NCBI GenBank assembly: GCA_001790855.1
Contig: MGDH01000037.1
Coordinates: 1,843 to 41,048 of the forward strand
Reading direction: 5' to 3'
Origin: Candidatus Schekmanbacteria bacterium RIFCSPLOWO2_02_FULL_38_14
GTDB taxonomy: Bacteria > Schekmanbacteria > GWA2-38-11
DNA: 39,206 nt
The notes beneath the pieces are model-generated. The model did no database searches. It was not told where the DNA came from and saw only the letters and a list, made by a program, of their open reading frames with translations. The stretch's first letter is position 1, and the number at the start of each line of letters is the position of its first letter. Positions 1 through 35,771 of the stretch are shown here, piece after piece. The position numbers and the translations under genes are program-made.

Positions 1-1597
1 TCCCTGCCTTAAATGCCTGATGATGAGCAAGGGCATGGTCAGCAGGAGTAGAAGAAAATGTAACTGTTAAAAGATACTTACCACTTACACCAGCGTTAGC
101 TGGATTATTATCATAGGTAACTCCAGTTACTGTAGCATATATATCATCAGCTGTATTGTCTGTAATCCGTAGCCACTGACTCGCTAACCTGCCTTTACCC
201 GTTCCATCAGCAGGACCTGCCCTGTAAAGGGTAACACCTGGCTTTCCTGTAACACCTGACTTCTGAATAAAGGAATAAGTGTTTGAACCATCAAAACTTA
301 CATTAGCCACAGAGTTTATTGTAGAACCATAACCAGAGGTGTTATTAGCGTCTGTATCACCAAAGGCATTGGTCGTAACTATATTCCATGCTGTGCCATT
401 TGTTGAATAATCAACCTGAGCCGAAGTAGGATAAGCACCAGCCACACCATACCCCCTAAGGTTAGAACCTGCAAAAAGAGAACCATCAAAGGAATGAAGA
501 GTACCTATACCTTCGCTACCTGTAAAGCTATGCACCTTTGTCCAGGTTGTGCCAGGGCCTGTCCACTTCCATATCTCACCACCTTGGGTAATCAGAGGTT
601 GCACATAACCACTGCCAAATATAGCTTTGCCTGTTCCTGCATAAAGATAACCCCCAAACTCAGCAAAGCAACCACCCCAGTTATTAAAACTCTTATTAAG
701 ATGTGCCTCACTGCCTCCAAAACCATCATTATTTACCTGCGTAAATGTCCCTCCTGTAGGCTCATACTCCCATATCTCGCAACCTGTAACTCCTGTCCCG
801 CTCCCACTCCCTCCAGGATAATCATTAGTCCTGCCTGTATCCCGGGGAGGATTAGGTTGCTTACCTAACATAATATATAATTTATTATCAAATCCTATCA
901 TATCAGGAATATAAAGCTTGTCAGCGACTTCAGCACTGCCATCCTCCCAGGCTGTGCTTGCGACCCCGTCTCCTGCTATCTGATGCCAGTTATCCGCATA
1001 GACATTACCTGAAAAATTAAAACTTACCGCTGATGGGTCATAAAACTTCCAGCTCACTGCTGAGCCTGTTACACCTGGTGCTATGCTTACGCCATCTGGA
1101 GCATGGTTAAAATAAGGATAACCATTAGGATCATACCCGTATTCATTATTAACAGAAACACCGCCAACCGAAATGCTTTCAATGGTAGCATATGTTCCGT
1201 AAAGAGTGTCACCAGTTGCATTGTCGTTGGTATTGTTATTGGTTATTGTAACATTCCCGGATAATATTTTAGTTCCACTATCCCAGCTTAAACCAGTGGA
1301 AGCCATTATGACATTTAGCGGGTAATATCCTGATCCAGCAGATGTGTATTGTTTTTTAGCAGAGCCTTTTGTTTTCTTTACACCTTTGCTTGCATCAGGA
1401 TATTCAAATGTAATCGTACCCTTTTCAACATCCACATAGGCTCTGAATGAGGCAACGGGCTTTTTCTTTGATACGCCTGATGATGACTTAGCTCCTCCGA
1501 TGCCTCCATCCTCTCCGCAACCCGGAATTAAAAATAGAGATAGCGCGAAGCAAAGAATTACTGATAATATTTTTATCCCCAAAAGTTTATTTTTCAT
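1..1597 (-). CDS. Lipoprotein with propeller-like repeats, C-terminus outside window
   Basis: Reading the minus strand from the ATG at 1597 gives 532 codons with no stop before the window edge, so the gene is partial. A GGGGAG ribosome site lies about seven bases upstream of the ATG. Residues 1-26 form a signal peptide ending in a lipobox, I24-P25-G26-C27. Gly at +2 argues against inner-membrane retention, so an outer-membrane lipoprotein is likely. From about residue 270 onward there are repeats of the type EIW...DGFG...LYAGT (near residues 276-310 and 341-390, with a further related stretch near 410). This pattern is familiar from secreted bacterial beta-propellers. The middle is rich in N, T, G and S, as in surface-exposed beta proteins. 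No catalytic motif is visible and the function is unknown. The gene lies 55 bases after the 52-codon gene and probably shares its sigma-54 promoter. Confidence 0.85.
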   Translation of the reverse strand, partial: MKNKLLGIKILSVILCFALSLFLIPGCGEDGGIGGAKSSSGVSKKKPVASFRAYVDVEKGTITFEYPDASKGVKKTKGSAKKQYTSAGSGYYPLNVIMASTGLSWDSGTKILSGNVTITNNNTNDNATGDTLYGTYATIESISVGGVSVNNEYGYDPNGYPYFNHAPDGVSIAPGVTGSAVSWKFYDPSAVSFNFSGNVYADNWHQIAGDGVASTAWEDGSAEVADKLYIPDMIGFDNKLYIMLGKQPNPPRDTGRTNDYPGGSGSGTGVTGCEIWEYEPTGGTFTQVNNDGFGGSEAHLNKSFNNWGGCFAEFGGYLYAGTGKAIFGSGYVQPLITQGGEIWKWTGPGTTWTKVHSFTGSEGIGTLHSFDGSLFAGSNLRGYGVAGAYPTSAQVDYSTNGTAWNIVTTNAFGDTDANNTSGYGSTINSVANVSFDGSNTYSFIQKSGVTGKPGVTLYRAGPADGTGKGRLASQWLRITDNTADDIYATVTGVTYDNNPANAGVSGKYLLTVTFSSTPADHALAHHQAFKAG

Positions 1598-1652: not shown

Positions 1653-1811
1653 TTAGAAAAAAGTCCCTCCACCTACATTCGCAGTAGAAGTAAAGAGGGT
1701 AATATCAATTAATGGTTCGTAAACTTTAAGTTTTGGTTCTACAAAAGCTTTTTTCTTTGGAATTCCTATAGCTTTTTTCTCTTCAGTTTTAATTTTCTCT
1801 TTGTTGCTCAT
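1653..1811 (-). CDS. 52-residue peptide with RiPP-leader-like motif
   Basis: The ATG at 1811 is preceded by a strong GGAGG site eight bases away, and the frame ends at TAA (1653-1655). The N-terminal half is very lysine/glutamate-rich and has no signal peptide. Residues 21-28 (KAFVEPKL) fit the K-x-[YF]-x-x-P-x-L pattern recognised by RiPP recognition elements in lasso-peptide and related leaders. A second VYEP follows at 30-33. The C-terminal part is rich in T, S and G and ends in ANVGGGTFF. It contains no cysteine, which argues against sactipeptide or lanthipeptide chemistry. No RiPP recognition element, B-type protease or cyclase was seen in this window. Translation signal and promoter make a real gene likely; the RiPP reading is inference from motif only. 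It could instead be a small structural or regulatory partner of the downstream lipoprotein. Confidence 0.65.
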   Translation of the reverse strand: MSNKEKIKTEEKKAIGIPKKKAFVEPKLKVYEPLIDITLFTSTANVGGGTFF

Positions 1812-1865
1812 TTAAGCCTCCAAAAAAAATTATAGACAATTTTTTCCTGAATTAGAATACCTTTT

Positions 1866-2274: not shown

Positions 2275-4473
2275 TTAATTTGCAGGATTTATTTTTTTTA
2301 AAAACTCTTCTGATGTCTTGTCTTTCGGATTTAAACTTAAAGACTTGATGAAATGCTCTATTGCTTTTTCCTTATTTTTTAAACTTAAAAATATCAATCC
2401 AAGGCTTATATGAGACTGATAATAATCTGGTTTCAAATCTAAAACCCTTTCAAACTCTTCTATGGCATCTTTAAACATTTTCTTTTCCATATATATTTTT
2501 CCCAGATTGAGATGGGGTATTATCTCTGTCTTTTTTAACCTTGCTGCAATTTTTAAATATTTTATTGCTTCATTGCTGTTTCCTGCCTCATTCAGCGCAC
2601 TCCCAAGGTTATTATAAACCTCATAAAGATTTGGATTTTGTCTGACTGCTATCTTATATTCCTCAATCGCCTCTTTGAATAATCCTTTTTTAAAATATAT
2701 ATTGCCTAAGTTATTGTAAGCTTTTGCCAGAGTTGGATCAAGTTTTATAGCCTCTTTATATTCCTTCACAGCATCATCAAATAACCCATTGTTGCTAAAG
2801 AGTAGTGCCAAGTTATAATGTGGATCACCTGATTTTTTGTCAATCTCTATTGCTTTCTTATAAGCTTCTATGGCTTTATCAGTAGCTCCAATTTGCCTGT
2901 AGATATTTCCTGCATTGATATAGGCTCTAAAAAAATTAGGGTTCAGTTCTAAGACTGTTTTTAGCTCCTTTAGTGCCTGCTCATATTTACCTTTTTTACT
3001 GTAAATAGTAGCAAGATTAAAGTGGGCATCCCAGTAATAGGGATTTATTTCAAGAGCTTCTTTAATATGCTTCAACCCCTTTTCATGGTCTCCCTTATCT
3101 ATATATATTGTTCCTAAGTTATTGTGGACAAGGCAATCTTCTGGAGATTTTTTTATTGTATCAAGCCAGAGGGTCAGGCCATCTTTCCAGACAGTATTCC
3201 GGCTAAAGGTCAGAACAAAACAAGAAAGGCTTATAAGAAAGAAAATGATAAAAACTAAATATTTATAAAAGGAAGATAAAAATCCCACTCCATCCCCCTT
3301 TTTCAAAGGGAAACTTGAAAGAATATTTTCGGATAAAACTGTCCCCGAAATTTCTTCCAGATTGCAGAGTTTGAAGATAATCAAACTCAACCCTAATGTA
3401 AATGCAAATGAAGGTAAATATAAATATCTATCAGCCTTTAATATTGCGATTGGAATCAGATTTGAGACTGGAATTAATGTTATTAAAAACCACATTAAGC
3501 AAAACCCGACTAATTTGTTGTTTTTCCTGAATTTAAAAAAAATAACAATAAAAGCAATGAGAAGAATTGCTCCTGCTATTATCCTGATATCAGAAAAGGA
3601 GGGAGGAAAAGGAACCTCATATCTGACATTCAGGTTTATTGGGAAGAGTAATAGTTTTATATAATCAAAAACAACCCCAAGCATTGCAAGAAACGTAAGA
3701 TAAGGGCTATCACCCCAATAGGTTTTAACAACCTCCTTCTCTGAAGCAACTGACAAAGTAATAATAGTTGAGAGACCTGCAATAACTAAAAAAGGAAGGA
3801 TACGAATAATTGTCCTTTCTATTCTAAATACTTTCTTCTCAGCTAAGAAGCAATAATCAAATAAAGGAAGCAAAAATGGAAGTATTATTACTGAGGGTTT
3901 TGAAAAGAGTGCAAAGATAAAACTTATTATTGAGGAGATAAAATATAGATTTTTCTTTATTCCAGTTATTTTAAAAGCTAAAACGTAAAATAACAGGGAG
4001 AGGAAAAAGAACATGCCCGAGAGGACATCCTTTCTTGCAGATATCCAGTTCACAGCCTCAGCATGAATGGGATGAAGGGTAAAGAGAAGGGAAGAGAAAA
4101 AAGATAACGCCTTATCCTCAAAAATCTTCAGAGTCAGTAAATATACAAGCAGGCAATTTATCATAAAAAGTATAACATTTGTCAGATGGAAGCCAAGGGG
4201 TTTAAGTCTCCAGAAATGATAATCCAGAGCATAGGAAAGCTCCTTTAATGGTAGATAGTCGCTTGCAGTTGGCTCAGAAAACATTCTGCATATATTGTCA
4301 AAATTAATTGCTTTTATCTTTTTATTCTCAAGAACGAGCCAGCTGTCATCATAGTTTACAAAATCATTTTTCAATGAGTTTGAATAGACAGCAAAAGAAA
4401 TGGCAAGAATCAAACAGATTGAAACAAAATGATTTAAATATTTTTCTGAAATCATAAATAAAAATCTATCCAT
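2275..4473 (-). CDS. TMTC-like GT-C membrane protein with eight TPRs
   Basis: The 732-residue protein has roughly ten to twelve membrane helices in its first 430 residues, then eight 34-residue tetratricopeptide repeats (about 447-719). The first loop carries the acidic pair D42-D43 (VNYDDSW), typical of GT-C glycosyltransferases that use polyprenyl-phosphate sugars. HPIHAEAV (134-141) and RYLYLPS are also shared with the TMTC family of O-mannosyltransferases. The likely role is sugar transfer to a protein or glycan on the outer face of the inner membrane, with the TPR part binding the acceptor. AAGGA precedes the ATG at 4473. It is the last gene of the long minus-strand run and the third tandem paralogue. 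The loop before the last helix contains repeat-derived sequence (see 3296-3310). Substrate and donor are not determinable. Confidence 0.85.
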   Translation of the reverse strand: MDRFLFMISEKYLNHFVSICLILAISFAVYSNSLKNDFVNYDDSWLVLENKKIKAINFDNICRMFSEPTASDYLPLKELSYALDYHFWRLKPLGFHLTNVILFMINCLLVYLLTLKIFEDKALSFFSSLLFTLHPIHAEAVNWISARKDVLSGMFFFLSLLFYVLAFKITGIKKNLYFISSIISFIFALFSKPSVIILPFLLPLFDYCFLAEKKVFRIERTIIRILPFLVIAGLSTIITLSVASEKEVVKTYWGDSPYLTFLAMLGVVFDYIKLLLFPINLNVRYEVPFPPSFSDIRIIAGAILLIAFIVIFFKFRKNNKLVGFCLMWFLITLIPVSNLIPIAILKADRYLYLPSFAFTLGLSLIIFKLCNLEEISGTVLSENILSSFPLKKGDGVGFLSSFYKYLVFIIFFLISLSCFVLTFSRNTVWKDGLTLWLDTIKKSPEDCLVHNNLGTIYIDKGDHEKGLKHIKEALEINPYYWDAHFNLATIYSKKGKYEQALKELKTVLELNPNFFRAYINAGNIYRQIGATDKAIEAYKKAIEIDKKSGDPHYNLALLFSNNGLFDDAVKEYKEAIKLDPTLAKAYNNLGNIYFKKGLFKEAIEEYKIAVRQNPNLYEVYNNLGSALNEAGNSNEAIKYLKIAARLKKTEIIPHLNLGKIYMEKKMFKDAIEEFERVLDLKPDYYQSHISLGLIFLSLKNKEKAIEHFIKSLSLNPKDKTSEEFLKKINPAN
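3296..3310. repeat. Palindromic repeat remnant inside GT-C/TPR gene
   Basis: CCCTTT-TTC-AAAGGG forms a six-base-arm hairpin inside the coding frame. It gives FPLKKGD in the protein, a translation typical of a dispersed C-rich repeat in metagenome-derived genomes. It sits in the loop before the last membrane helix, at the same place as the 7151-7172 element in the paralogue. Confidence 0.5.
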
Positions 4474-4481
4474 TAAAATCC

Positions 4482-6605
4482 TTATTCCAGCTCTTTTAAT
4501 GCTAATTCTGCTTTTTTGTCTTCAGGATTTAACCTTAAACTGGTTTTGAAATTTTTTATTGCCTCATCTTTAGCCCCTTTTAACTGATAAGCTTTTCCGA
4601 GCATATTATAGATTTCATAAAAATCAGGGGCAAATTTTAATGTATTTTTCAAAACCACAATAGCATTATCGTACTCACTTATCTGAATATATATCTGAGC
4701 GAGGTTAATGCCCGCATTAATATGTGATGGCACAGCTTTAAGAGCCTTCTTAAACATCTGCTCAGCATCCTCATAGTTTTTATTCATTCCATATATAATT
4801 CCCAAATTATTTAAAACCCCTGCATTTTTAGAATCAAGCTCAAGGGCTTTTTTAAATTCATTAAAAGCCGGTTGAGTACGGCCTGCTTCTATATAGAGCA
4901 ACCCCAGTTCAATATGGTTGCCTGCTATTTCAGGGTCAAGCTCAATTGCTTTTTTGAACTCTCTCTCAGCTTCTGCAGGCATTTTTAAATCACGGAATGT
5001 TATCCCAAGATTAAAATGAGCGCTGCCGTAATCAGGCATTATTTTTATGGCTTTTTTATAAGCCTCTACAGCAAGGTTCCCCTTTCCAGTGGCTTCATAA
5101 ATATTTCCTAAATTGTTGAAAGCGATATGGTTTTTCGGATCAAGGGCTAACGCTCTTTTAGTATAGAAAAATGCCTTGTCAAAGTTCCATTTTTTTCCAT
5201 AAACAGCTCCCAGGTTCAGATTGGCATCTATATAACCCGGCTCAAGCATAACTGCTTTTTTAAACTCTACAAATCCATTCTCTGTTTTATCAATATCTAA
5301 ATATTCTGCACCCAAATTATTATGAGGCCTTGCCTTCTCAGGAGATTTCTTTACAGCATCACTCCAGAGGGTTAGACCATCCTGCCAGACATGGTTGCGA
5401 TAATAAGTAGCAAGAGAGAAGCAAAGGACAATCAATGCTGGAGTGATAACAATTAAAATCTTGCTCAGTCTGCTTGTGCCCATTAATATTTTATAAATAA
5501 ACAGAGAAAGAAAAATTGAAAACCCAACTGAAGGAAGATAAAGCCACCGCTCACTCAAGACATCCTCAAGGGGAATAATTGAGGTCGGAGATAAAGCTAT
5601 GAAAAACCAGAGAATGGAAAAAGAAATCTCTTTGAAAGTTTTAAAAAACTTAAAAGCCAAATAAAAAATTAATAAAATTGTGACTAATGATAGGAGGGTT
5701 TTAAAATTTATGCCTGTAGTTAATGGAAAATCATGGTCTATGTTCAAATTTATTGGGAAGAAGAGAAGTCTTATATATTCTGTGCTAACATTAATCTGGG
5801 TTAAGATATTGACATAATAATTCCTGTTAAAAGTCGGGTTGCCTAAAGTTCCGTAAAAATATCTCCTCAGAACCATTAAGGCTCCAATTATGACAAAGAA
5901 AGGGAAATAGAAACGGGTCTTTACCTGCCTGCCGGCAGGCAGGGACCCCGTTAATAACAGACCTAAAGGTCTGTTTCTACGAGTAGTTGAAAAGCAAGAC
6001 TCATAGAGAATTAGAATAAATGGCAGAGTTGCTCCTGTTTCCTTTGAACCAATGCTTAAAAGGAAAAAGATAATGGAGGCTAAATAAGAAAAAAACAGCT
6101 TACCCCGTGATGGAACAACGCTTCTGGAATATTTAAGGAATTTAATGAAAAATATCATAGATAAAAGAAAAAATGTAGTGCTCATAACTCCTGAACGGCT
6201 TGAAATATAAGTAACTGATTCAACATTTATTGGATGAGCAACAAAGAACAGGGAGGCTAAAAAAGAAACTTTATGGGTTTTAAATATGAGGTTATAAGAA
6301 ATCAGATAAACAAGAATACCATTTATGATATGAAAAAATAAGTTCACAAGATGGTATCCAAAAGGATTAAATCTATTAATGTAATAGTTCAGAGCAAATG
6401 AAAGGCTTGATAATCCTCTTGTTGGATTTGAAAAGACTATATCATATAAATTATGTAAATCCCTTAGCTTGTAATCAGATAAAATTACCTTTCTGTCATC
6501 ATAGTGAAATGGCACATTAAAAGAATTAGAATAACACAGTATCGCAGTTAATATTATTAATGAATGGGGCAAAAAAACATAAAGCCATTTTGATTTATCT
6601 TTCAT
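4482..6605 (-). CDS. TMTC-like GT-C membrane protein with eight TPRs (paralogue 2)
   Basis: This 707-residue protein has the same architecture as its neighbours: a polytopic GT-C part with D36-D37 in the first loop (FHYDDRKV), HPINVESV at about 124-131, and WLYLPSVGF near the end of the membrane part. Eight TPRs follow at about 422-694. It begins five bases after the upstream paralogue ends, and its stop is eight bases before the downstream one starts, so all three are cotranscribed. About 25 residues (207-232) between ESCFST and the next helix come from palindromic repeats inserted in frame, including PAGRQV. The likely function is polyprenyl-phosphate-sugar-dependent transfer in the periplasm; acceptor unknown. 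Confidence 0.85.
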   Translation of the reverse strand: MKDKSKWLYVFLPHSLIILTAILCYSNSFNVPFHYDDRKVILSDYKLRDLHNLYDIVFSNPTRGLSSLSFALNYYINRFNPFGYHLVNLFFHIINGILVYLISYNLIFKTHKVSFLASLFFVAHPINVESVTYISSRSGVMSTTFFLLSMIFFIKFLKYSRSVVPSRGKLFFSYLASIIFFLLSIGSKETGATLPFILILYESCFSTTRRNRPLGLLLTGSLPAGRQVKTRFYFPFFVIIGALMVLRRYFYGTLGNPTFNRNYYVNILTQINVSTEYIRLLFFPINLNIDHDFPLTTGINFKTLLSLVTILLIFYLAFKFFKTFKEISFSILWFFIALSPTSIIPLEDVLSERWLYLPSVGFSIFLSLFIYKILMGTSRLSKILIVITPALIVLCFSLATYYRNHVWQDGLTLWSDAVKKSPEKARPHNNLGAEYLDIDKTENGFVEFKKAVMLEPGYIDANLNLGAVYGKKWNFDKAFFYTKRALALDPKNHIAFNNLGNIYEATGKGNLAVEAYKKAIKIMPDYGSAHFNLGITFRDLKMPAEAEREFKKAIELDPEIAGNHIELGLLYIEAGRTQPAFNEFKKALELDSKNAGVLNNLGIIYGMNKNYEDAEQMFKKALKAVPSHINAGINLAQIYIQISEYDNAIVVLKNTLKFAPDFYEIYNMLGKAYQLKGAKDEAIKNFKTSLRLNPEDKKAELALKELE
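5924..5975. repeat. Compound palindromic repeat inserted in coding sequence
   Basis: A perfect 20-base palindrome at 5924-5943 (CCTGCCTGCC and its complement) is followed by a second inverted repeat at 5956-5975 (AACAGACCT-AA-AGGTCTGTT). The first is flanked by AACGGGTC and GACCCCGTT as outer arms. The insertion keeps the frame and encodes the SLPAGRQVK stretch, which is known from dispersed repeats in uncultivated-bacterium genomes. The GC content is far above that of the surrounding gene. Confidence 0.85.
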
Positions 6606-6610
6606 TCTTG

Positions 6611-8332
6611 TCAGTTGCCTTCATTTATTTCTTTTAAAATTTTCTTTGCAGCTTCATTTTTTGGATTATAAATCAGGACATTTTCAAAACACTCTTTGGC
6701 AAGCTTCATCTCATTAAGTGACATATATAACATTCCGAGATTCCCATATGCTGCTACAGAATTCGGAACCAGCCCGATTAATTCTTTGTAAGATATTATT
6801 GCTTCTTTTATCATTCCCTTTTTAAAATAATAATTGCCGCTTTCAAACAATGCTACAGCTTCCTGAAGCATTAGACTTTTTTCACCCTTCTTCCTATATG
6901 CCCTGCCGAGATTGGCTCTTGAAGGTGAGTAATGCTTATCAATTCTTATTGCCTCTTTAAAAGATTTTATTGCTTCATTGTAGAGTTTCAGTTTCGCAAG
7001 AGCAACTCCGAGATTATTATGGGTTCTTGCTTTATGTGGAGATTTTTGGGCTGCATCCCTCCATAGCAATGCTTCACTGCTCCATACTTCATTCCTGCTA
7101 AAAGTCAAAATCGAAAAGAATAATATGAGAAGAATTCCTATTACTGATAATCCCCCCTTGCCCCCCTTTGAAAAATGATAACTCTCCCTGTACCCATCCT
7201 GTAATAGCATAATAAACAAAGCCAAGAATAAATAAAATCCAATTCCAGGCAAATAAAGCCATCTTTCACTCAATATATCCTGCAGAGGTATTAACAGCGT
7301 CGGGCTGAACGTTATGAGGAAGAAAAAAACTGAAAAAGCAATCTCGGAACATTTTCTGTATATTATTAAAGCTCCAAAAATTAAAATTAAAATCCCTATA
7401 AATGACAAAAGTGTTTTAATCTCAAGAAATGAACCGGATAAAAAATATTCATGATCTATATTAAGATTCACAGGGAAAATCAGGAGCTTAATATAAGCCC
7501 ATAATGCATTTGCCTGAGTAAGAAAGTTTTTATAATAATCCCTGTGAAAAGTCGGGTTGCCTAAAGTTCCGTAAAAATATCTCCTCAAAACCATTATGGC
7601 TCCAATTATGACGAAGAAAGGGACGTAGTATAATTTATAGTGAATGACATTGATCCTTTTCAGTTTGATAGGCGGGACATTCTTGTCCCGCCATGACGGG
7701 GTTAGAAAACCCCGTCTATCGATAGAGGTAGAAAAGCAGGACTCATAGAGAATTAAAATCAAAGGCAAAGTTATTCCTGTTTCCTTTGAGCCAATACTTA
7801 ATAGAAAAAAGATAATGGAAGTCAAATAAAAACCAGTCTGCTTAAGTCCTGATGCTCCGGTATTTCTAAAGTTTCTCAGGAATATAATAAAAAATATCAT
7901 AGATAAAAGATAAAATGTTGCGCAGAGAACTCCGGAGCGGCTTGAAATATAGCTGACTGATTCTGTGTTTACAGGATGAGAAATAAAGACAAGGGAAGTA
8001 AAAACCAAAACTAAAATATCTCCCTGAAAGGTGATTCTAAGAATAAGAAAAAACAAAACTCCGTTCAAACAGTGTAAAATTATATTTACCAGGTGATATG
8101 AGAAGGGATTAAGTTTTCCCCACCAGAAATTCAACGCAAAAGAGAAGGTTGAAACAGGCCTTGAGGGGTTAGAAGAGAATATTTTTTGGAAATCCTTTAT
8201 ATCCCTGACACTCTCATTTTTAACAATTACCTTTTCATCATCGTAGTGAAAAGGGCTATTGAGCGTATTAGAATAGATTGCAAAAGATACTATGAAAATA
8301 ATAATTATTGATAAAGAAGTTTCACGCCTCAC
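6611..8332 (-). CDS. TMTC-like GT-C membrane protein with shortened TPR region (paralogue 3)
   Basis: The 573-residue product matches the neighbouring proteins: D31-D32 in FHYDDEKV, HPVNTESV at 119-126, the RRYFYGTLGNPTF block also seen in paralogue 2, and RWLYLPGIGF. Its TPR part is short, with about four recognisable units, one of them degenerate (about residues 436-557). The start is GTG at 8332, overlapping the end of the DUF2304 gene by 11 bases, which suggests translational coupling. Two loops carry repeat-derived residues: 203-236 (RRGFLTPSWRDKN type) and the FSKGGKGG segment before the last helix. The fewer TPRs suggest a different acceptor or partial decay. Confidence 0.85.
   Translation of the reverse strand: MRRETSLSIIIIFIVSFAIYSNTLNSPFHYDDEKVIVKNESVRDIKDFQKIFSSNPSRPVSTFSFALNFWWGKLNPFSYHLVNIILHCLNGVLFFLILRITFQGDILVLVFTSLVFISHPVNTESVSYISSRSGVLCATFYLLSMIFFIIFLRNFRNTGASGLKQTGFYLTSIIFFLLSIGSKETGITLPLILILYESCFSTSIDRRGFLTPSWRDKNVPPIKLKRINVIHYKLYYVPFFVIIGAIMVLRRYFYGTLGNPTFHRDYYKNFLTQANALWAYIKLLIFPVNLNIDHEYFLSGSFLEIKTLLSFIGILILIFGALIIYRKCSEIAFSVFFFLITFSPTLLIPLQDILSERWLYLPGIGFYLFLALFIMLLQDGYRESYHFSKGGKGGLSVIGILLILFFSILTFSRNEVWSSEALLWRDAAQKSPHKARTHNNLGVALAKLKLYNEAIKSFKEAIRIDKHYSPSRANLGRAYRKKGEKSLMLQEAVALFESGNYYFKKGMIKEAIISYKELIGLVPNSVAAYGNLGMLYMSLNEMKLAKECFENVLIYNPKNEAAKKILKEINEGN
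7151..7172. repeat. C-rich dispersed repeat inside GT-C/TPR gene
   Basis: TCCCCCCTTGCCCCCCTTTG stands out against an AT-rich gene and encodes the linker FSKGGKGGLS on the minus strand. KGGKGG-type translations of this repeat are common in genomes with dispersed repeats. It occupies the loop before the last membrane helix. Confidence 0.6.
7671..7716. repeat. Twin hairpin repeat inserted in coding sequence
   Basis: Two perfect nine-base-arm hairpins lie side by side: GGCGGGACA-TTCT-TGTCCCGCC (7671-7692) and GACGGGGTT-AGAA-AACCCCGTC (7695-7716). The palindrome CTATCGATAG follows at 7716-7725. All are in frame and encode part of residues 203-236 of the paralogue 3 protein. Confidence 0.85.
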
Positions 8333-11206: not shown

Positions 11207-12079
11207 CTATTCTTTTTTTGCTAAAGCGAGTAGATAGTGCCCTAATCCAACACGAACATCTAATTGAATTTTTTTAGCAATGAGAGCAAAAGTCCGGAAA
11301 AAAGGATTAAGATTCTTAAAAATCCAGTCTTCCCTTCCAGGAACTCCGAAACCTTCTTCTTTAAGAAGTAAAATTTTAAATCCTGTTTTTTTTAGCAGAT
11401 ACGCTAAAGTTTCTTTTGTAAAAAGGTATAAATGGTAGCTTCTTGGAGCAAATTTTTCTTCTTTTGTTGAACGCAGGAAAAGATTAAGGAGAAAATTTCT
11501 TATCTTAAAGTTGTTTTCATTTGGGACTTCAATTAATAAATACCCTGACGGCTTCATAATTCTTTTTATTTCTTCTAAAGTTATCAGTGGATTAGGGAGA
11601 TGTTCTAATACATGACTCATATTTATTAAGTCAAAATAATCTTCTGGAAAATTAGCTTTTTCAACCCCTCCTTTCCTAACTTCAATATCTAATTTCTTAG
11701 ATAATACCTGAACTGCCCACGAAGATACTTCAACTCCATGAATATTCCATCCTCGCTCTTTTGCTACTTTTAGAAAACTTCCCGTCCCACATCCCACATC
11801 CAGTACTCTTCCAACTGGCATTTCTTTTAAAATAGTGTTGAACCGATTTATGAAAAAATTTTCTTGCTCCTTGGCAATTTTTTCATAAACATGGTAATAG
11901 TTTTCTCTATAAATTTCCTCATTAATAAGATATACTAAAGTCCTTGGATTCTGATACATAAGACTGCATTTTGAACATTTTACAATATTTATGTTTCCTT
12001 TGGAATAGATGTGGTAAAAATTTTCAGAATTACAAATTATACAAGATATATACTCTTTCATATCTAATTTATCTAACAT
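11207..12079 (-). CDS. Zinc-ribbon SAM methyltransferase (copy A)
   Basis: The 290-residue protein begins with a zinc ribbon (CIICN at 13-17, CSKCSLMYQNPR at 35-46). A class I methyltransferase domain follows, with the SAM loop VLDVGCGTG near 92-100, the acidic strand end GVEVSS and the MSHVLEHLPNP block. This arrangement resembles the N-terminal two thirds of sugar C-methyltransferases but lacks their C-terminal domain (those proteins are about 400 residues). The target may be a sugar, lipid or small molecule. The ATG at 12079 overlaps the stop of the radical SAM gene by one base. It is about two-thirds identical by eye to the gene at 13455-14312, so the pair arose by duplication. Confidence 0.8.
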   Translation of the reverse strand: MLDKLDMKEYISCIICNSENFYHIYSKGNINIVKCSKCSLMYQNPRTLVYLINEEIYRENYYHVYEKIAKEQENFFINRFNTILKEMPVGRVLDVGCGTGSFLKVAKERGWNIHGVEVSSWAVQVLSKKLDIEVRKGGVEKANFPEDYFDLINMSHVLEHLPNPLITLEEIKRIMKPSGYLLIEVPNENNFKIRNFLLNLFLRSTKEEKFAPRSYHLYLFTKETLAYLLKKTGFKILLLKEEGFGVPGREDWIFKNLNPFFRTFALIAKKIQLDVRVGLGHYLLALAKKE

Positions 12080-13458
12080 TAATATTTTTTTCTTTTTTTA
12101 AACAAACGATATGGTGCAATAAGTTCCTGAATTTTTTTTAGGATTTCTTTAAGGACCAGAGTCGTTGAATCTGGTTTCAATAATTCCAAAATTACAATAT
12201 AGATATTTCCTAATAGCCATAGCAGTTTTATCTCCATTTTTGAAAGAGCATCTGTTCTAATAGTGCAATTGTGTGCATCAAATCTTTCATAATCCTTTTC
12301 CATTAAATGACCTTTTTGAATAAGAATTTTCTGCAGCTCTGTTCCTGGGAATGGAGATGCCATGGAAAAGCCAACGTAAAAAGAATTCACTTTCTTTATG
12401 AATTTAAGGGTATCTATTACTGTAGAATAATTCTCACCTATATTGCCTATCATAAAGGAGCCAACTGTCTTGATTCCAGCTTCATGAGTTAATCGAAAAG
12501 CTCGTTCCAGTTCTTCTATTGTTATTCCTTTCTTCATTTTATTGAGCATAGTCTGGTTTCCACTTTCGCCGCCAAAAAGAATAACCTGAATGTTAGCTCT
12601 TCTTGCAAGCTTTAATAGGTGAGAATTGAGTAACTTCTCATTTGCTCGGAAAGCAGCCTTATAAACTATCTCCTCATTTAATTTATTCTCTATGATTAGA
12701 TTTAATAATTCTTCAGCCCATTCTTTGTTCAAATTAAAAGTGTCATCTTGGATGTATATTTCTCTCATATGATAGCGATTATATAGCCATTTTATCTCCT
12801 CGATAACCTTTTCAGGTTTTCTGAACCTTGTGTGTTTTCCGAAAACTGAAACATTACAGAATGTGCACTGGAAGGGACAACCCCTTGATGCCATTATGTA
12901 CATACATGGCTTCTGGATAACAGGTGGTCCTCCTGTGAATCTGTACAGATCTTTAACTAAATCAAGGTCAGGCAGTGGTAAGTAGTCAAGATCAGCAACA
13001 AAAGGTCTTGGGTCATTAACAATTCCTTTAAAACAAATTCCTTTGATTCCTTCTAAGTTTTTCCCATCCACAATCTCTGAAAATGTATGCTCTCCTTCAC
13101 TAAAGACTACTACATCAATATTTGGAAAGTTCTTGAAAAGTTCTATCTTTAACGCAGAAGAATGAGGTCCTCCTGCTACAACACGAATATCTTTGCTGAC
13201 CTCTTTCGCAAGGTTTGAGATAATCCTTGCTGATTTTGTCTGGTAGGTATTCATTGTAATTCCGACTATGTCTGGAGAAAATTCCAGGATTTTTGCTTTT
13301 AATCCTTTAATGTTAATACGCTCATTAGTGAGATGGGTTATGCAGACATTGTGACCTTCCTGTGAGAGCATTGTCCCCATAAGCACAAGAGCTCCGGAGG
13401 GATATATTTCAGTCTGTTGCGGGACATTTTCTTCTGGGTTTATAAGCAGGATATTCAT
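12079..13458 (-). CDS. Cobalamin-binding-type radical SAM enzyme (1)
   Basis: The 459-residue protein has an N-terminal B12-binding-like Rossmann domain (about 1-150) with the GGPH motif at 96-99 and SEGEHTF. The iron-sulfur cluster motif is CX3CX2C at C194, C198 and C201. The DxHxxG cobalamin ligand motif is absent, as in many class B relatives. Enzymes of this type methylate unactivated carbons or rearrange lipids and tetrapyrroles; the substrate here cannot be told. It overlaps the upstream methyltransferase by four bases (ATGA) and the downstream one by one, so the three are translationally coupled. Confidence 0.85.
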   Translation of the reverse strand: MNILLINPEENVPQQTEIYPSGALVLMGTMLSQEGHNVCITHLTNERINIKGLKAKILEFSPDIVGITMNTYQTKSARIISNLAKEVSKDIRVVAGGPHSSALKIELFKNFPNIDVVVFSEGEHTFSEIVDGKNLEGIKGICFKGIVNDPRPFVADLDYLPLPDLDLVKDLYRFTGGPPVIQKPCMYIMASRGCPFQCTFCNVSVFGKHTRFRKPEKVIEEIKWLYNRYHMREIYIQDDTFNLNKEWAEELLNLIIENKLNEEIVYKAAFRANEKLLNSHLLKLARRANIQVILFGGESGNQTMLNKMKKGITIEELERAFRLTHEAGIKTVGSFMIGNIGENYSTVIDTLKFIKKVNSFYVGFSMASPFPGTELQKILIQKGHLMEKDYERFDAHNCTIRTDALSKMEIKLLWLLGNIYIVILELLKPDSTTLVLKEILKKIQELIAPYRLFKKRKKY

Positions 13459-14312
13459 TTATTATTTTTTGCTAAAGCAATAAGATAATGCCCTAATCTA
13501 ATGTGAACATCTAATTGGAGTCTCTTAACGAAAAATGCTAAGGTTCTGATAAATGGATTAAGGCTCTTGAGTATCCAGTCTTCTCTGCCCTTGACTCCAA
13601 ATCCTTCTTCTTCAATTAACAAAAGCTTAAATCCTGATTTATCTATCAGGCTTGCAAGGGTGTCTTTTGTAAACAGGTATAAATGGTAGTTTCTTGGGGC
13701 AAACTTTTCTCCTGTGCCGGAATGTAAGAAAAGATTTAGAAGAAAATTTCTTATCTTAAAATTTTTCTCATTCGGAACTTCAATCAGTAAATACCCTGGT
13801 GGCTTTGTGATTCTTTTGATTTCTTTTAGAGTTTTAAGCGGGTTAGGCATATGTTCTAATACATGACTCATATTCACTAAATCGAAATATTCATTTGGAT
13901 AATTTGCTTCTTCTACTGTTCCTTCAGTAATTCCAATGCCCAATTTATCAATTGATGCATGAGCTGCCAGTGAAGATACTTCAACCCCATATACATCCCA
14001 ACCTAAATCTTTAGCCACCTTAAGAAATCCTCCGGTACCGCACCCTACATCCAGTACTTTTCCAGTTGGTATTCCTTTCAAAACAGTCTCAAATCTATTC
14101 CTGAAGAACTTTTCCTGATCCTGTGCTATCTTTTCATAAATTTTATAATAGTCCTTTCTATTGGTTTCTTCGTTTACAAGATTCTGAGAGACTCTCGGAT
14201 TCTGGTACATGAGTCCACATTTAGTGCATTTGACTATATTTATACTTTCACGGGAATAGATGGATGAAGAATTATCAGAATTACAAATCACACATGGTAC
14301 ATACTCTTTCAT
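13455..14312 (-). CDS. Zinc-ribbon SAM methyltransferase (copy B)
   Basis: The chosen start is the ATG at 14312, where MKEYVPC aligns with MKEYISC of copy A; an in-frame TTG at 14366 would add 18 residues but has no ribosome site. The 285-residue product has the zinc ribbon C-x2-C...C-x2-C (about 7-33), SAM loop VLDVGCGTGG, EVSS after the second strand, and MSHVLEHMPNP. It lacks the extra C-terminal domain of sugar C-methyltransferases. The C-terminal LDVHIRLGHYLIALAK block is also nearly identical to copy A. It sits between two radical SAM genes, giving two tandem radical SAM-methyltransferase pairs. Confidence 0.8.
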   Translation of the reverse strand: MKEYVPCVICNSDNSSSIYSRESINIVKCTKCGLMYQNPRVSQNLVNEETNRKDYYKIYEKIAQDQEKFFRNRFETVLKGIPTGKVLDVGCGTGGFLKVAKDLGWDVYGVEVSSLAAHASIDKLGIGITEGTVEEANYPNEYFDLVNMSHVLEHMPNPLKTLKEIKRITKPPGYLLIEVPNEKNFKIRNFLLNLFLHSGTGEKFAPRNYHLYLFTKDTLASLIDKSGFKLLLIEEEGFGVKGREDWILKSLNPFIRTLAFFVKRLQLDVHIRLGHYLIALAKNNK

Positions 14313-14393
14313 TTTCTGTTTTGATATCCTATTTTGAAGCCTCAAGCTTTTGAAGGTCCAGCTCAAAGAGACTTTTCAACATAAAAAATCAGG

Positions 14394-15830
14394 TTACATT
14401 CTATTGCTTTCCCGCCCTTTTATTAAGAATTCTAAAAGTGCGAGAAAACCATTTAAATAAATTCTTAGATGAGTAAGTGTTTTTATCTTCTTCAGATAAG
14501 ATAACACAATTCTTGGTCTGAAATAGAATTTCCTGAATGCCTGTTTGTTAAAAAAAACCAGCTTATCCTCTGTTAACTCTTTGGGGACAAAGACCGGAAA
14601 CCAGCCAGAAAGCATTTTCCAGTCGTTGTTGAAGGTACCAAACTCACCTGCTTTCTCATACAAAAGAGAACCAGGGAAGGGGGTCATAAAACTAAAATGG
14701 GCTTCTTTTAAAGGAAGGGAGAGGGAAAACTTTATGGTTGCATTGATGCTATCTTCAGTTTCGGTGGGATGACCAATAATAAAGGTAGCACAGGGCTCTA
14801 TGCCTGCTTTTTCTGTTTCTAACACAGCCTTTTTAATCTCCTCCAATGTGATTTTTTTATTTATTACATCAAGTACTTTCTGTGAGCCACTCTCAATCCC
14901 GTACCAGATCTGCCAGCAGCCGGCTCTCTTCATCATATTGAGCATCTCAGGGTTTATCATATCTGCCCTTCCCATGCAGGTCCAAACTATATCCAGTTTC
15001 TCCGTTATTAATAAATTACATAATTCCATGAGTCTCTTTTTTATTGCAACGAAGTTATCATCTCTGAATTGAATCTCTCTAATTCCATAATTTTGATAAA
15101 GGTTTTTTATCATTGCCATAACATAAGAAGCGGAATAAAAGCTTACATTATTTCCGAACATACTCCTGTCACAAAAAATACATTGTCCGGGACAACCCCT
15201 TGATGTAACCAGCATAGAAGCTGGGATTTTTTTTAAGGTATGGACAGGAGGACAATAATATTTTGCTAAATTAGGCAGGAGATCCCATGCAGGAAATGGA
15301 AGGTTATCTAAATCCCTGACACGCTCCCTTAAGCCGGTAAATAGAAGATTTCCATTTTCCCTTAAAAAAAGTCCCTTTACCTGTCTTAAATCCTTTCCTG
15401 CTGTAAGGGATGATATGAGTTCTGATATAGTATAATCGCTCTCTCCAAAGCAACCAATATCAAACTGGGGGTAGAGTTGTAATGTCTTTTCAGGAATTGC
15501 AGTAAAATGAGGACCGCCGATTATTATTTTGACCTTATTAAGGTGTTCTTTAATCAAAGAAGCAACTTTTGATGTATTTCCAATGCTTGATGTCACGGCA
15601 GTTAGCCCTACAAAATCAGGATTTTTCTTTATAGTCAGTTGTGCTACTTCCTCGCAACTCAAAGAAAGAGCTGCTCCGTCAAGGATTTTAACATCAAATC
15701 CCCTTTCTCTCAGGCTTGCAGCCAAATTTGTCAGACCCAAAGGAGGTGTTTGACCCCCACTTTGATACTTTAATCCATAGCGCTCCATTATGGTCAATGG
15801 TGGATTAATAAACAATATTTTTGGATTCAC
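14394..15830 (-). CDS. Cobalamin-binding-type radical SAM enzyme (2)
   Basis: The 478-residue protein starts at GTG (15830), with AGAGG about ten bases upstream. The N-terminal domain (about 1-160) has the B12-binding fold features PPLGLTNLAASL, GGPH (105-108) and GESDYT, but not DxHxxG. The cluster-binding cysteines are C213, C217 and C220 (RGCPGQCIFC). IWYGIESGSQKVL and the later FIIGHPTET belong to the radical SAM barrel. The C-terminal 80 residues are basic and helical, as in enzymes acting on membrane-associated substrates. Substrate unknown. The downstream partner is methyltransferase copy B. Confidence 0.85.
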   Translation of the reverse strand: MNPKILFINPPLTIMERYGLKYQSGGQTPPLGLTNLAASLRERGFDVKILDGAALSLSCEEVAQLTIKKNPDFVGLTAVTSSIGNTSKVASLIKEHLNKVKIIIGGPHFTAIPEKTLQLYPQFDIGCFGESDYTISELISSLTAGKDLRQVKGLFLRENGNLLFTGLRERVRDLDNLPFPAWDLLPNLAKYYCPPVHTLKKIPASMLVTSRGCPGQCIFCDRSMFGNNVSFYSASYVMAMIKNLYQNYGIREIQFRDDNFVAIKKRLMELCNLLITEKLDIVWTCMGRADMINPEMLNMMKRAGCWQIWYGIESGSQKVLDVINKKITLEEIKKAVLETEKAGIEPCATFIIGHPTETEDSINATIKFSLSLPLKEAHFSFMTPFPGSLLYEKAGEFGTFNNDWKMLSGWFPVFVPKELTEDKLVFFNKQAFRKFYFRPRIVLSYLKKIKTLTHLRIYLNGFLALLEFLIKGRESNRM

Positions 15831-15847
15831 AATTCATTACCTCTTTT

Positions 15848-17791
15848 CTATTTTTTAAAAATCTCAAGTTGTTTAAGATTTTCCTTTGCAGGATTAAAGC
15901 TTGGGTCAAGTTTTAAACACTCTTCCCACTCTTTCCGTGCCATTTCATAGTTCTTTCCTATAGTACAAAGAATTGCAAAATAATTATGATAATTAATATT
16001 TGAAGGAAAGTTCTGCACAAGTTTCTGAAACTTTTCTATTTCTTCATAATAGAGTTTTATATAAAGTGGTCCTTGCCTCTGTAAGCTGTATCCTCTTATT
16101 AAGAATGTTGAAATCAAAGATTTGAAAGGTTCTCTTCTTTCATTAACATTGAATGGCCTTAATATTAATGTATTATCTATCTTGTCCATTATAGTATAAT
16201 TTTCAAAAATGTATTCGCTCAATTCAGGGCTATATTCCTCACCTGATATTCCATCTATTTCCTGGTCAAGTTCATAAATAATCTTTTTTGTACCATTCTG
16301 AATTAAATCTCTTATTGCTTCTTCCCTCATCTTTTTTGTAATTGCAAGATAACCCAAGCAGTATCTCGTGGGATTAACTCTGTCAGCCAGAAAATAATAT
16401 ACAGCCTGCTGGGGAAAGATAAAGACAGGTTCATTATAATCCGTCTTTTTAGAAATATATGAAATTACCTTTTCAAAATGGTTTGCCTGCTCAGTTAGTG
16501 TCCTGACACCTCCTCCCCTTTTCAAGTTTAGTGTTGCTAAACCTTCTTCATTTACATTTGTTTTTGTTATCCAATAATTAATTAACCTTTCTTCCTCAAA
16601 AAAGTTTTTAAGGTTAAAAACCTTCATAAAATAAACTAAGAACATAATCAGCAAAAGTATCATAAAAACAACCTCAAATTTCATAACGGGCTTTAAGCTT
16701 TTAATGTGTAAAAGATCCTTTGCCCTGATGAAAAGTCTTTCCATGAAATAAATACTGATTAATATAGCCGGAGATATGGAAAAGAACAGATGATGAATAT
16801 CTGATCTTCCCAGAGCAGTTCTGAAAGCGAGAATCCCAAAGATAAGAACAAACAGGATCTTTATTTTTTCTGTATTAAATTTTTTTTGTATCCCTGAGAT
16901 AACTAAGTAAATTAAAGTTAATATATAAATTCCAATTGGAAGATAAAAGAGAAACAAGGTATCTGTTATCAGGGATAAAAGTTCTCTGACTGAAAAAATA
17001 CTGTTAGAAATATCAATAACAGGAAAAGGTAATCCCTGGAATCCGGAAGATACATAGATGGGGTATTTTATCAAAACCTCAAAAAAAGGTTTTAAGGCTC
17101 CTACAGAATAGAAATAAAGAAAAAATAATGATGGGAAAATAACTATCCCTGAAAACATTAAAAGGGAGGATTTTAGAAAAACTTTTTTTGGAAATTCATC
17201 AGACAGAGAGAAAACTAATAATGAGCCAAATGCTCCGGCCAAGGCACAAAGAGTTGTTTCTTGTGAAAATAAGAATGCGATACCAAGAAAGATGCCTGTA
17301 GAGAAAATCCAGAAGTATTTCTTCTTCTCTAAAAATTTAAAAATTATCAAAAGAATTATAAGCCCTAATGATACTCTGATATGATTAAATAAAAACTGAG
17401 AGAGTAAAATTATTGAAAAAAATATCACAAAAAACCTATTTTTCAAAAGTGATCTTGCAGTAAGATAACCAAGTATCTTTCCAAGTCCTCCCAGTAAATA
17501 AAAATATATCTTCTGAATTAATATAGTTGCGCCAAAAATCTTGAAGGTAAAAAAAAGGGGATAAATCTGCAAAGGGGGGTAGGGAATCCAAACATCCTTA
17601 TATAGAATTTTGCCTCTCATAAGTTCATTTACTACTGCAGAGAATTGTCCATCATCCCATGGTATTATAAAATTTTTAAAAGGTGTTGGAGTGTAAAAGA
17701 AAATAAGAACTGGTAATAGGATATAGTCGATAAAATTCCAGATTATTTTTGAAAAATTATTATTTTGAAATGTCTTCATTTGTAGAAACAT
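15848..17791 (-). CDS. GT39-like GT-C membrane glycosyltransferase with C-terminal TPR
   Basis: The 647-residue protein has an acidic pair, D46-D47 (IIPWDDGQF), in the first outside loop, then GKILYKDVWIPYPPLQIYPLF (60-80). That combination is characteristic of GT39/ArnT-type enzymes that use polyprenyl-phosphate sugars. About ten membrane helices run to residue 400. A soluble periplasmic part follows and ends in one TPR-like unit (about 600-640). The start overlaps the upstream small membrane-protein gene by 32 bases; ATG at 17779 is an alternative that shortens the overlap. The stop lies 17 bases before the next gene. Donor and acceptor are unknown. Confidence 0.75.
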   Translation of the reverse strand: MFLQMKTFQNNNFSKIIWNFIDYILLPVLIFFYTPTPFKNFIIPWDDGQFSAVVNELMRGKILYKDVWIPYPPLQIYPLFFTFKIFGATILIQKIYFYLLGGLGKILGYLTARSLLKNRFFVIFFSIILLSQFLFNHIRVSLGLIILLIIFKFLEKKKYFWIFSTGIFLGIAFLFSQETTLCALAGAFGSLLVFSLSDEFPKKVFLKSSLLMFSGIVIFPSLFFLYFYSVGALKPFFEVLIKYPIYVSSGFQGLPFPVIDISNSIFSVRELLSLITDTLFLFYLPIGIYILTLIYLVISGIQKKFNTEKIKILFVLIFGILAFRTALGRSDIHHLFFSISPAILISIYFMERLFIRAKDLLHIKSLKPVMKFEVVFMILLLIMFLVYFMKVFNLKNFFEEERLINYWITKTNVNEEGLATLNLKRGGGVRTLTEQANHFEKVISYISKKTDYNEPVFIFPQQAVYYFLADRVNPTRYCLGYLAITKKMREEAIRDLIQNGTKKIIYELDQEIDGISGEEYSPELSEYIFENYTIMDKIDNTLILRPFNVNERREPFKSLISTFLIRGYSLQRQGPLYIKLYYEEIEKFQKLVQNFPSNINYHNYFAILCTIGKNYEMARKEWEECLKLDPSFNPAKENLKQLEIFKK

Positions 17792-18272
17792 AGCCTTTTT
17801 TCAATAAAAAGAAATTAAACAATTTTATAAAGAAAATTATAAAAGCTAAAAACACCAATGAAAAGTTAATTTCTTTTTTATATATAATTATCCAATACAG
17901 TGCAAGAAAAGAGGGTAAAAAATCAATAGATGAAATGCATAAAATCTTTTCAAGAGAAATTTTGAAATATTTTGATATGAAAGATGAATAAAAAATCCAT
18001 GAAAGCCATGTAAGAACTCCGACTGAACTTATAAGAATCAAACTTAAAATATAATAGAAAATCTCCTTTTGCTTTGGGTAACCATAAAGATTTGTTAACC
18101 CAACTACATCAAGTTCATTTTTATAAGGTTTGAATTGAATTGGGAAATTATAGACGAAAACCAGAAGGAAATAGATTCCCAATACAAATCCTGAGCCTAT
18201 TATTATTAAATTATATAAAAAATTATCTTTTTCTGATGATAACCGAATTGCTTTTTTTATAAAATCTTTCAA
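17760..18272 (-). CDS. Small four-helix membrane protein, unknown function
   Basis: I do not recognise a family. The 170-residue product has four likely membrane helices (about 21-42, 74-95, 117-131 and 136-154) with a polar loop at 47-70. It starts at TTG (18272), with GAGG about nine bases upstream, and its end overlaps the start of the GT-C gene by 32 bases. The tight coupling suggests a subunit or accessory of that transferase. The hydrophobic, AT-rich composition fits its neighbours and I see no sign of a frameshift joining the two. Confidence 0.6.
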   Translation of the reverse strand: MKDFIKKAIRLSSEKDNFLYNLIIIGSGFVLGIYFLLVFVYNFPIQFKPYKNELDVVGLTNLYGYPKQKEIFYYILSLILISSVGVLTWLSWIFYSSFISKYFKISLEKILCISSIDFLPSFLALYWIIIYKKEINFSLVFLAFIIFFIKLFNFFLLKKGYVSTNEDISK

Positions 18273-18307
18273 ATAGAAGCCTCAAATGTTAGCCTTCTTC
18301 AATTAAT

Positions 18308-19933
18308 TTATTTTGGAATTTGTGATAGAAAATTTTCCATAGTCTTATTATAAATTAACCAGTCAACTTGATAGATTTCAAAAGGAGCTCCATTAGTACT
18401 TATATCATTTGGGACTAGAAAAGAGTGAACAAGCCTTAAGAAAGGGAATGGAGTGTCATTAATAAAGTTTTTCCTCGAGTAGAGCAAATAATTAGACTTT
18501 TTGAACTTCATATATTCAATGAGATATATCCAATACCTCAAATCTGTTTTAACCCCTGGACTATGACCAATCATTTCATGAGTGGTTAGCCCAACTGTAT
18601 CTATAGTTTTTCTTCCAGAAAAAAGCTTTGTTGCTCCAATAGGATCTGAGGTTATAACTGTTTCTGGGGGAAGATTCTTTGAAATCCATTCCGCAACAGA
18701 AACGTGAGCATCATTTACGTTTTGTATATGTAATGGATATTCATTCCGTGCAAAATTAAAAAAATTCAAACAGAAATAACAAAAAAGAAATAAAAATGGC
18801 AGGATTATAATTCCTTTAATACAGATCAAATGATTATGGGACTTAATATCTTTTGTCAAATTTTTATAAACTGATTCTACTAAGAAAAATAATCCGAAGC
18901 CAGCACCTATTGAGATTATTGGGTCATAAGGAGTGATATACCTGAAGACCCATCCAAGATAGATTGACTTGAAAGCCTTCCATGTGAAAAATGCAAAAAC
19001 TGTAGTTGCCCAAAAGAAATTTTGAAATGGTTTAGCTTTCTTAGCAATAGCAAAGATTATCCCAATAGTAGCAAAGAGGTATAAGAAGATATGGTATGAA
19101 TCAAGCTGGTCTGCAATTGCTAAGTATCTTTTCCATAGGTTTGCAAAGTCATATCCTGGTCCAACATATATGTAATAGGGTGTTGGGAAAAGAAGTCCTG
19201 TAAAATACCAATAGATAATTAGAGGTATAACCGCTGTTGATATTGTTATAAGGGCGAATCTCATTAGTTCTTTTGGTTTAATCAAAGTTCTTTTGCTATC
19301 AAAAACCTTTGATATCAGACCAAAATGTTCAAGAGATAGAAAAATCATAGCCATTGTCGGGAAGATATACAGCTCTTCCCTTGCCCATCCACATAACCCA
19401 AAAGCAAAAGGGCTGAATCTCAATATTCCTTCATCATATTCTTTGAAAAAAGTATGGGCTGCAAGCAGTATCATGAAGGCTGTTAGCGGTACTTCCATAC
19501 CACTTACAGCACCCCATATTAACTTGGAATTAAGAAGAAATAATATCCCACATATTAAAGATACATATTGAGATTCAAATAGAAATTCTGAGAGTTTTAA
19601 AAGAAAATATAAAGATAAAGCAAGAAGCGAAATGCCAACTAAATAATTGGAGAAGAGGAGAGCTTTATAAATATTGTAGAAAAAAAATCTGGAAATAAAA
19701 AATACTGGAGTTAGGATTACATACCATAAGAAGCCTGTCACCCCAGCACTTTTTTCCCCAATGTTATATTCAAAAAAGTGCCCTGAAGCAGCATTTTTTA
19801 TATAATTTAGATATATATAACCGTCATCTGTGGGCAGGTTGAAGGTGCCTGTATGGTTATAGTTTTCCCAAAGGAAGAAGATGGCCTCGATAAACAGGAT
19901 TAAAAGTAAAATATATCTAAAATGTTTAGACAT
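18308..19933 (-). CDS. GT-C membrane glycosyltransferase, AftB-like
   Basis: The 541-residue protein carries the pattern DDGYIYLNY...EYNIGEKSAGVTGFLW (D36-D37 through W70). This is close to the DDAFI..RYA..EGHGLVxNPGERVEGYT signature of AftB-type arabinofuranosyltransferases and their bacterial GT-C relatives. About ten helices are followed by a short periplasmic tail (from about residue 400) with SVAEWISKNLPPETVITSD, typical of this group. The likely role is transfer of a sugar from a lipid carrier onto a glycan or protein. ATG at 19933 overlaps the stop of the radical SAM gene by eight bases. Confidence 0.75.
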   Translation of the reverse strand: MSKHFRYILLLILFIEAIFFLWENYNHTGTFNLPTDDGYIYLNYIKNAASGHFFEYNIGEKSAGVTGFLWYVILTPVFFISRFFFYNIYKALLFSNYLVGISLLALSLYFLLKLSEFLFESQYVSLICGILFLLNSKLIWGAVSGMEVPLTAFMILLAAHTFFKEYDEGILRFSPFAFGLCGWAREELYIFPTMAMIFLSLEHFGLISKVFDSKRTLIKPKELMRFALITISTAVIPLIIYWYFTGLLFPTPYYIYVGPGYDFANLWKRYLAIADQLDSYHIFLYLFATIGIIFAIAKKAKPFQNFFWATTVFAFFTWKAFKSIYLGWVFRYITPYDPIISIGAGFGLFFLVESVYKNLTKDIKSHNHLICIKGIIILPFLFLFCYFCLNFFNFARNEYPLHIQNVNDAHVSVAEWISKNLPPETVITSDPIGATKLFSGRKTIDTVGLTTHEMIGHSPGVKTDLRYWIYLIEYMKFKKSNYLLYSRKNFINDTPFPFLRLVHSFLVPNDISTNGAPFEIYQVDWLIYNKTMENFLSQIPK

Positions 19934-21356: not shown

Positions 21357-21357
21357 T

Positions 21358-23918: not shown

Positions 23919-23919
23919 T

Positions 23920-35621: not shown

Positions 35622-35647
35622 CAAAGATAGTTAGCTGTAAACATATC

Positions 35648-35765
35648 AATTCCCAAATCACAAATTCCAAAAAAATAAAGTTCTAATGTTCTGTATATGA
35701 GTTTGATTAATTTGAGAATTGAAATTTAGAGCTTATTTGTATTTTGGTGTTGAAATTTGGAATTT
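35648..35765. repeat. Inverted repeat between convergent genes
   Basis: AAATTCCAAA (35662-35671) is exactly repeated in reverse complement at 35756-35765 (TTTGGAATTT). CAATTCCCAAA (35648-35658) pairs with TTTGAGAATTG (35711-35721) with one mismatch. The whole gap is AT-rich. It resembles a decayed dispersed repeat and may also serve as a two-way transcription end. Confidence 0.5.
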
Positions 35766-35771
35766 TAGTAT

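Follow-up and report, generated by a model that had tools for sequence, protein, structure and literature searches.

Lasso peptide leaders are read in a fixed register: positions Y/F-17, P-14, L-12 and T-2 are reported to be needed for B1 recognition and for cleavage, and B1 assists both the kinase and the B2 peptidase (PMC10368454). The HprK-like kinases phosphorylate a Ser of the core (PMC8498205, PMC7533575). Linear polyphosphorylated peptides (LPPs), which come from Bacillota, have an RRE, an HprK-like kinase, an NTP transferase and a YxxP-type leader, without a cyclase; their leader peptidase is signal-peptidase-like and their transporter MsbA-like, their conserved set lists no radical SAM enzyme, and their precursors are reported to have variable C termini (PMC13381572). 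With RRE-Finder, lasso-type RREs were also encountered beside radical SAM enzymes, ~300 of them, and were set aside as false positives (PMC7470986). The peptide gene analyzed here is, with a probability of about three in four, a RiPP precursor gene with its enzyme genes at another site of the genome, and the best reading of its product is that it represents a radical SAM-modified, probably phosphorylated family of linear RiPPs, near the lasso and LPP systems but distinct from them.

The gene lies in a 39,206-nucleotide stretch of the genome of Candidatus Schekmanbacteria bacterium RIFCSPLOWO2_02_FULL_38_14 (this stretch is referred to as the window, and its features are collected in Table 1). 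An ATG opens 52 codons that end at a stop; the sequence 5' of the ATG, TTTTGGAGGCTTAAATG, holds a GGAGG, the leader motif is K21-A-F23-V-E-P26-K-L28, the C-terminal tail is GGGTFF, and Cys is absent. (The first-pass annotation had recorded the ribosome binding site, the 52 codons, the K-x-F-x-x-P-x-L motif at residues 21-28, the tail and the lack of Cys just as they are found.) The search for homologues that it had proposed, carried out on 98 whole genomes, brings up four copies in a genome of the same order (G002; E 2.7e-10 to 1.1e-6) and one in another lineage (G023; E 1.1e-5), most of them directly before the gene of a large lipoprotein. The aligned peptides have in common the pattern K-x(1,3)-F-x-E-P-x-[LI]-x-x-Y-x-x-[LF]-x-[DNE]-[IV]-T-L and a tail ending in FF, which in G023 is prolonged by KTFK. 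Over the 30 codons common to the window and G002 copies, pN/pS is 0.14-0.50 (rough values, because synonymous sites are near saturation), and residues that are identical between the window peptide and the G002 copies are mostly specified by different codons. By these sequence comparisons the peptide gene is real and is under purifying selection at the protein level: the frame is conserved and substitutions are biased toward synonymous ones, the two points on which the first-pass annotation had let its proposal depend. Weak profile matches in G001, G002:C15:286589 and G003 are due to chance, as is a weak match on contig C16 of the window's own genome (G000), which lies antisense inside an FG-GAP gene. 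The window peptide matches nothing in NCBIfam and nothing significantly in Pfam; no Rfam elements or terminators were found around its gene, where promoter-like sites occur at chance level.

Table 1. Features of the peptide locus (positions in the window)
Feature	Position	Strand	Basis or remark
Adjacent lipoprotein gene, first 532 of 1042 residues (the rest is on the contig, left of the window)	2..1597	-	starts 55 bp after the peptide gene
Precursor peptide gene, 52 aa, MSNKEKIKTEEKKAIGIPKKKAFVEPKLKVYEPLIDITLFTSTANVGGGTFF	1653..1811	-	conserved frame, homologues, purifying selection
Predicted core FTSTANVGGGTFF, residues 40-52	1656..1694	-	register; 13-residue core also in the four G002 copies
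Leader recognition segment F23..L39: F(-17) P(-14) L(-12) T(-2), then L(-1)	1695..1745	-	same register in 22/22 precursors
Ribosome binding site GGAGG, 5 nt before the peptide ATG	1817..1821	-	upstream sequence read

Numbered from the lasso-type cleavage position, F or Y at -17, P at -14, L, I or V at -12 and T at -2 are found in every one of 22 precursors, and this leader register therefore predicts cleavage after L39, with a 13-residue core. Mean identity among the five window and G002 peptides is 66% in the core and 58% in the recognition segment. In anammox bacteria, Nitrospira, Deltaproteobacteria and Trueperaceae, most cores follow the pattern xFFGTFxP. The window core has neither Asp nor Glu; these residues occur in 3 of the 22 cores overall (at positions 7, 10 and 18), and at core positions 7-9 in only one.

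No maturation enzyme adjoins the peptide gene, as the first-pass annotation had stated; the candidate enzymes are encoded on another contig of the same genome, in a cassette of the order PqqD-HprK-rSAM-B2, that is, with an HprK-like kinase and a radical SAM enzyme (rSAM) between PqqD and B2. Searches with PqqD (PF05402) and Transglut_core3 (PF13471) find, in all four Schekmanbacteria genomes, a gene for PqqD and one for a B2-like protein no more than ~2.9 kb apart, and the PqqD-HprK-rSAM-B2 cassette is present in 4/4, in each case with no adjoining peptide. (In G001, which is 70% complete, and in G003, both cassette-bearing, no peptide was found.) B2 scores above the NCBIfam threshold for lasso B2; the similarity of the HprK-like and PqqD proteins to the HprK_rel_A, lasso PqqD and ScmC/ScmD models stays below cut-off, and among PDB entries PqqD matches the lasso B1 protein TbiB1 best. 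An invariant CxxxCxxC is found in the rSAM together with five more invariant Cys, and its predicted model (pLDDT 87) is similar to SuiB, SkfB, PqqE and anSME, and also to DesII and viperins. B2 of the window's genome has its Cys and His motifs, and the kinase has its P-loop and SDD motif; the P-loop, peptidase and Fe-S motifs are kept there and in most copies, simple patterns missing some elsewhere. No dedicated exporter gene was recognized.

Other PqqD/rSAM cassettes are present in the window's genome and might in principle work on the window peptide. One, at L171 3133-8987 (G000:C36), resembles an LPP-like cassette: consecutive genes encode PqqD, two radical SAM proteins, a protein of 304 aa, a protein that by eye is like S26 signal peptidases, and an NTP_transf_5-like protein. 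Cassettes of radical SAM, PqqD, HprK-sized and S26-peptidase-like proteins (by eye) are also seen at L049 4991-7903 (G000:C29) and L051 7346-10127 (G002:C4); no precursor was identified for these two. At L052 6614-9212 (G002:C15), genes for HprK-like, PqqD and radical SAM proteins are followed by a 67-aa ORF, MKRREFLEKGKKTLTVAAAASVVKKWISPKLISLDDSAYADTICPKKNDAIEKANKKCRQQKGKHFS, which opens with a Tat-like RR, contains Cys and a W-x-x-P-x-L motif, and may be a Tat-exported precursor of another RiPP type.

In the window's genome, peptide and presumed enzymes are on different contigs and have no physical link; genetic linkage is observed for relatives in other phyla and in a deltaproteobacterium (RBG_13_61_14; G043), where PqqD, a lipoprotein, a related peptide (a weak match to the Schekmanbacteria peptide profile, E 0.0017), HprK, rSAM, a second lipoprotein and B2 make up one cluster. 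When GTDB genomes were scanned with the rSAM alignment, 80 loci came up, the best 18 of which were examined; among these 18 are loci from Brocadia, Jettenia, Loosdrechtia, Nitrospira, Thermodesulfovibrionia, Bryobacteraceae and Trueperaceae (MAGs). An HprK gene is present in 17 of these best 18, one being a Schekmanbacteria contig (L053) without an adjoining peptide. In all 16 of the non-Schekmanbacteria HprK loci, HprK is preceded, directly and on its own strand, by an ORF with [FYW]xxPx[LIVM]x9T. When ORFs are counted (L053 left out), the register is borne by 16 of 52 just upstream of HprK vs 6 of 1990 elsewhere in the same loci, one of these six being a true second copy (Fisher p 1.7e-22; the motif was not chosen blind, the ORFs having first been noticed by a looser one, and position played no part in the choice). 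In a less biased set of seven genomes, retrieved by their rSAM only, a register-bearing peptide is present in four, inside the cassette locus in G350 and G192 and, by peptide profile, elsewhere in G308 and G320; in the regions read of the other three (G312, G181 and G188) no peptide was seen. The rSAM of the cassette is found in 13 of 386 sampled genomes, all four Schekmanbacteria among them. In G023 the components are distributed over three contigs: PqqD-B2-NTP_transf_5 (L047 5882-8859), HprK-rSAM (L170 7731-9785) and peptide-lipoprotein (L015 10139-10378).

The reading of the gene as a RiPP precursor, proposed in the first-pass annotation, is thus supported by the exact leader register, by like peptides within cassettes of other lineages and by the host's own cassette on another contig; the gene is short, has a conserved frame and is divisible into leader and core. 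Co-occurrence suggests that the window peptide is probably trimmed and modified by the distant cassette of the same genome. In the proposed pathway, the PqqD-type protein, as the RRE, would bind the FxxPxL leader, the radical SAM/SPASM-like enzyme would modify the Phe/Thr/Ser/Asn-rich core (at candidate sites Phe, Thr, Ser and Asn), and the HprK-like kinase, whose activity is putative, would phosphorylate core Ser/Thr. By analogy with lasso systems, removal of the leader by B2 would come after these RRE-guided modifications: the cysteine peptidase would cut after L39, which is, as at lasso cleavage sites, the residue following T-2, and free the modified FTSTANVGGGTFF. The mature peptide would probably act at the cell surface with the large lipoprotein from the same operon.

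Placed beside the LPPs, the system shares the RRE, an NTP transferase (in many loci), the YxxP-type leader, the absence of a cyclase and a kinase that is HprK-like by sequence and of putative activity. In place of an SpI-like leader peptidase it has a B2 above the NCBIfam cut-off, and because B2 replaces the signal-peptidase-like enzyme and a radical SAM enzyme is added, it is not an LPP cassette as described; it also belongs to other phyla, and its peptides have a conserved core, which in the window and G002 copies is no less conserved than the recognition segment, the opposite of the variable C termini of LPP precursors. The HprK-like, PqqD-like and radical SAM proteins are weakly similar to those of the SynChlorMet cassette (NCBIfam ScmC/ScmD/ScmE/ScmF), the Scm models scoring 24-76 bits vs curated cut-offs of 100-400. 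That cassette has two radical SAM proteins and is not known to have an identified precursor; no paper on it was found among open-licence papers. With the SuiB, SkfB and PqqE systems the cassette has in common a radical SAM enzyme with a C-terminal Cys-rich region, and its predicted rSAM model matches the fold of SuiB and SkfB, but identity is low (14-18%), and the core lacks Cys, Lys, Trp, Glu and Tyr, which are the residues that these enzymes join.

The lipoprotein next to the window peptide carries the lipobox LIPGC, and no terminator was found between the two genes. NCBIfam holds no match to it and Pfam none of significance, and its single-sequence AlphaFold model (pLDDT 33) gives no usable fold. 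Two copies of this lipoprotein family are found in G000 and five in G002. The peptide gene directly precedes a same-strand lipoprotein gene in the window, at three G002 loci (at one of which two peptide genes are in tandem) and in G023. For Schekmanbacteria the best reading is that the precursor genes stand apart from the cassette and form pairs with those of surface lipoproteins. The same gene order, and the presence of a separate lipoprotein with one or more peptides at each of the three G002 loci, would also suit an unmodified small protein serving the lipoprotein as chaperone, assembly factor or translational partner. This is an unlikely alternative: two of the five G002 lipoproteins and one of the two in G000 have no peptide, and a processed precursor is indicated by the lasso-type register, by like peptides beside maturation genes in 16 other genomes and by the peptide of G308, which has no adjoining lipoprotein. 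The earlier suggestion of a small partner of the lipoprotein may also hold for the mature peptide.

In other lineages the gene before the peptide typically encodes a large secreted protein, some of these with VWA/PKD, SBBP propeller, CBM9, FG-GAP or SpaA domains, and this supports a link of the peptides to surface proteins in general. Homology of the Schekmanbacteria lipoproteins to these secreted neighbours is not clear, profile similarity across lineages being marginal (G023, E 1.8e-4; Trueperaceae, E 0.004; in a database of three sequences). It is conceivable, if rather doubtful, that the mature modified peptide, instead of acting freely as a natural product, is a dedicated and conserved surface partner or ligand of the adjoining large secreted protein, one central cassette maturing several scattered peptides, one per surface lipoprotein.

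Directly upstream of the peptide-lipoprotein pair, positions 2275-8332 of the window encode three TPR-bearing multi-pass membrane proteins (TMTC-like by eye), and four similar genes are directly upstream of peptide and lipoprotein in G002 (L012 1535-9404). Window segments 12079-25299 and 34536-36869, read by eye, hold several genes for radical SAM proteins in between those of glycosyltransferases and methyltransferases, and a cobalamin-binding N-terminus is apparent in some of the radical SAM proteins; this content resembles a surface polysaccharide locus.

A route to a redox cofactor made from the peptide, as for PQQ or mycofactocin, in which the core would be cut to a small molecule for use by the secreted protein, is suggested by the pairing of PqqD with a PqqE-like radical SAM enzyme and by the unusual conservation of the core between lineages (xFFGTFxP in several phyla), unlike that of variable cores. 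We judge it improbable: no additional protease or dehydrogenase is found repeatedly, the secreted proteins nearby have mixed surface-protein domains and not oxidoreductase domains, and we know of no cofactor pathway with a B2-type peptidase and an HprK-like kinase.

Less probable still is a lasso peptide precursor with the same leader and B1/B2 whose ring is closed by a distant lasso cyclase. Leader register, B1- and B2-like proteins and HprK-like kinase do all occur in lasso clusters, and the likeness to systems with split B1/B2 (the paeninodin and Bsf types) covers the register Y/F(-17) P(-14) L(-12) T(-2), the PqqD-type RRE, the transglutaminase-like B2 peptidase, the HprK-like kinase and, in many loci, an NTP_transf_5 protein. 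On the other hand, an asparagine-synthetase-like gene is absent from all 19 scanned rSAM loci and from the peptide loci; all of these genomes do encode Asn_synthase family proteins, but none of them beside cassette or peptide, the closest being ~20 kb from two G002 peptides. The radical SAM enzyme stands in the place of the cyclase, and the window core, with neither Asp nor Glu, lacks the acidic ring acceptor. Because there is no cyclase in cassette or peptide loci and no acidic core residue, the features that define a lasso peptide are lacking and the product is not one, and the label "lasso" in the first-pass annotation is apt for leader and peptidase but not for what they yield. A chance open reading frame, for which the short length speaks, is refuted by the conservation found (homologues, conserved tail, pN/pS < 1) and opposed by the ribosome binding site.

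The separate parts of the system preferred here, a modified RiPP made by a distant cassette, are known; for lasso-type leader and peptidase, radical SAM enzyme and scattered precursors together, no description was found in the open-licence papers searched. No published description of a cassette with its own peptide recurring in many bacterial phyla was found in that literature, and nothing was found in open-licence papers on Brocadia with RiPP and radical SAM, or on HprK-related proteins with PqqD. The present cassette may belong to the set of ~300 noted with RRE-Finder. A likely precursor is now supplied for the cassette of anammox bacteria, Nitrospira, Schekmanbacteria and others, in which a lasso leader/peptidase module is joined with radical SAM chemistry. 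It also offers a case of precursors dispersed at a distance from their enzymes, which cluster-based genome mining would overlook, and links them to surface proteins.
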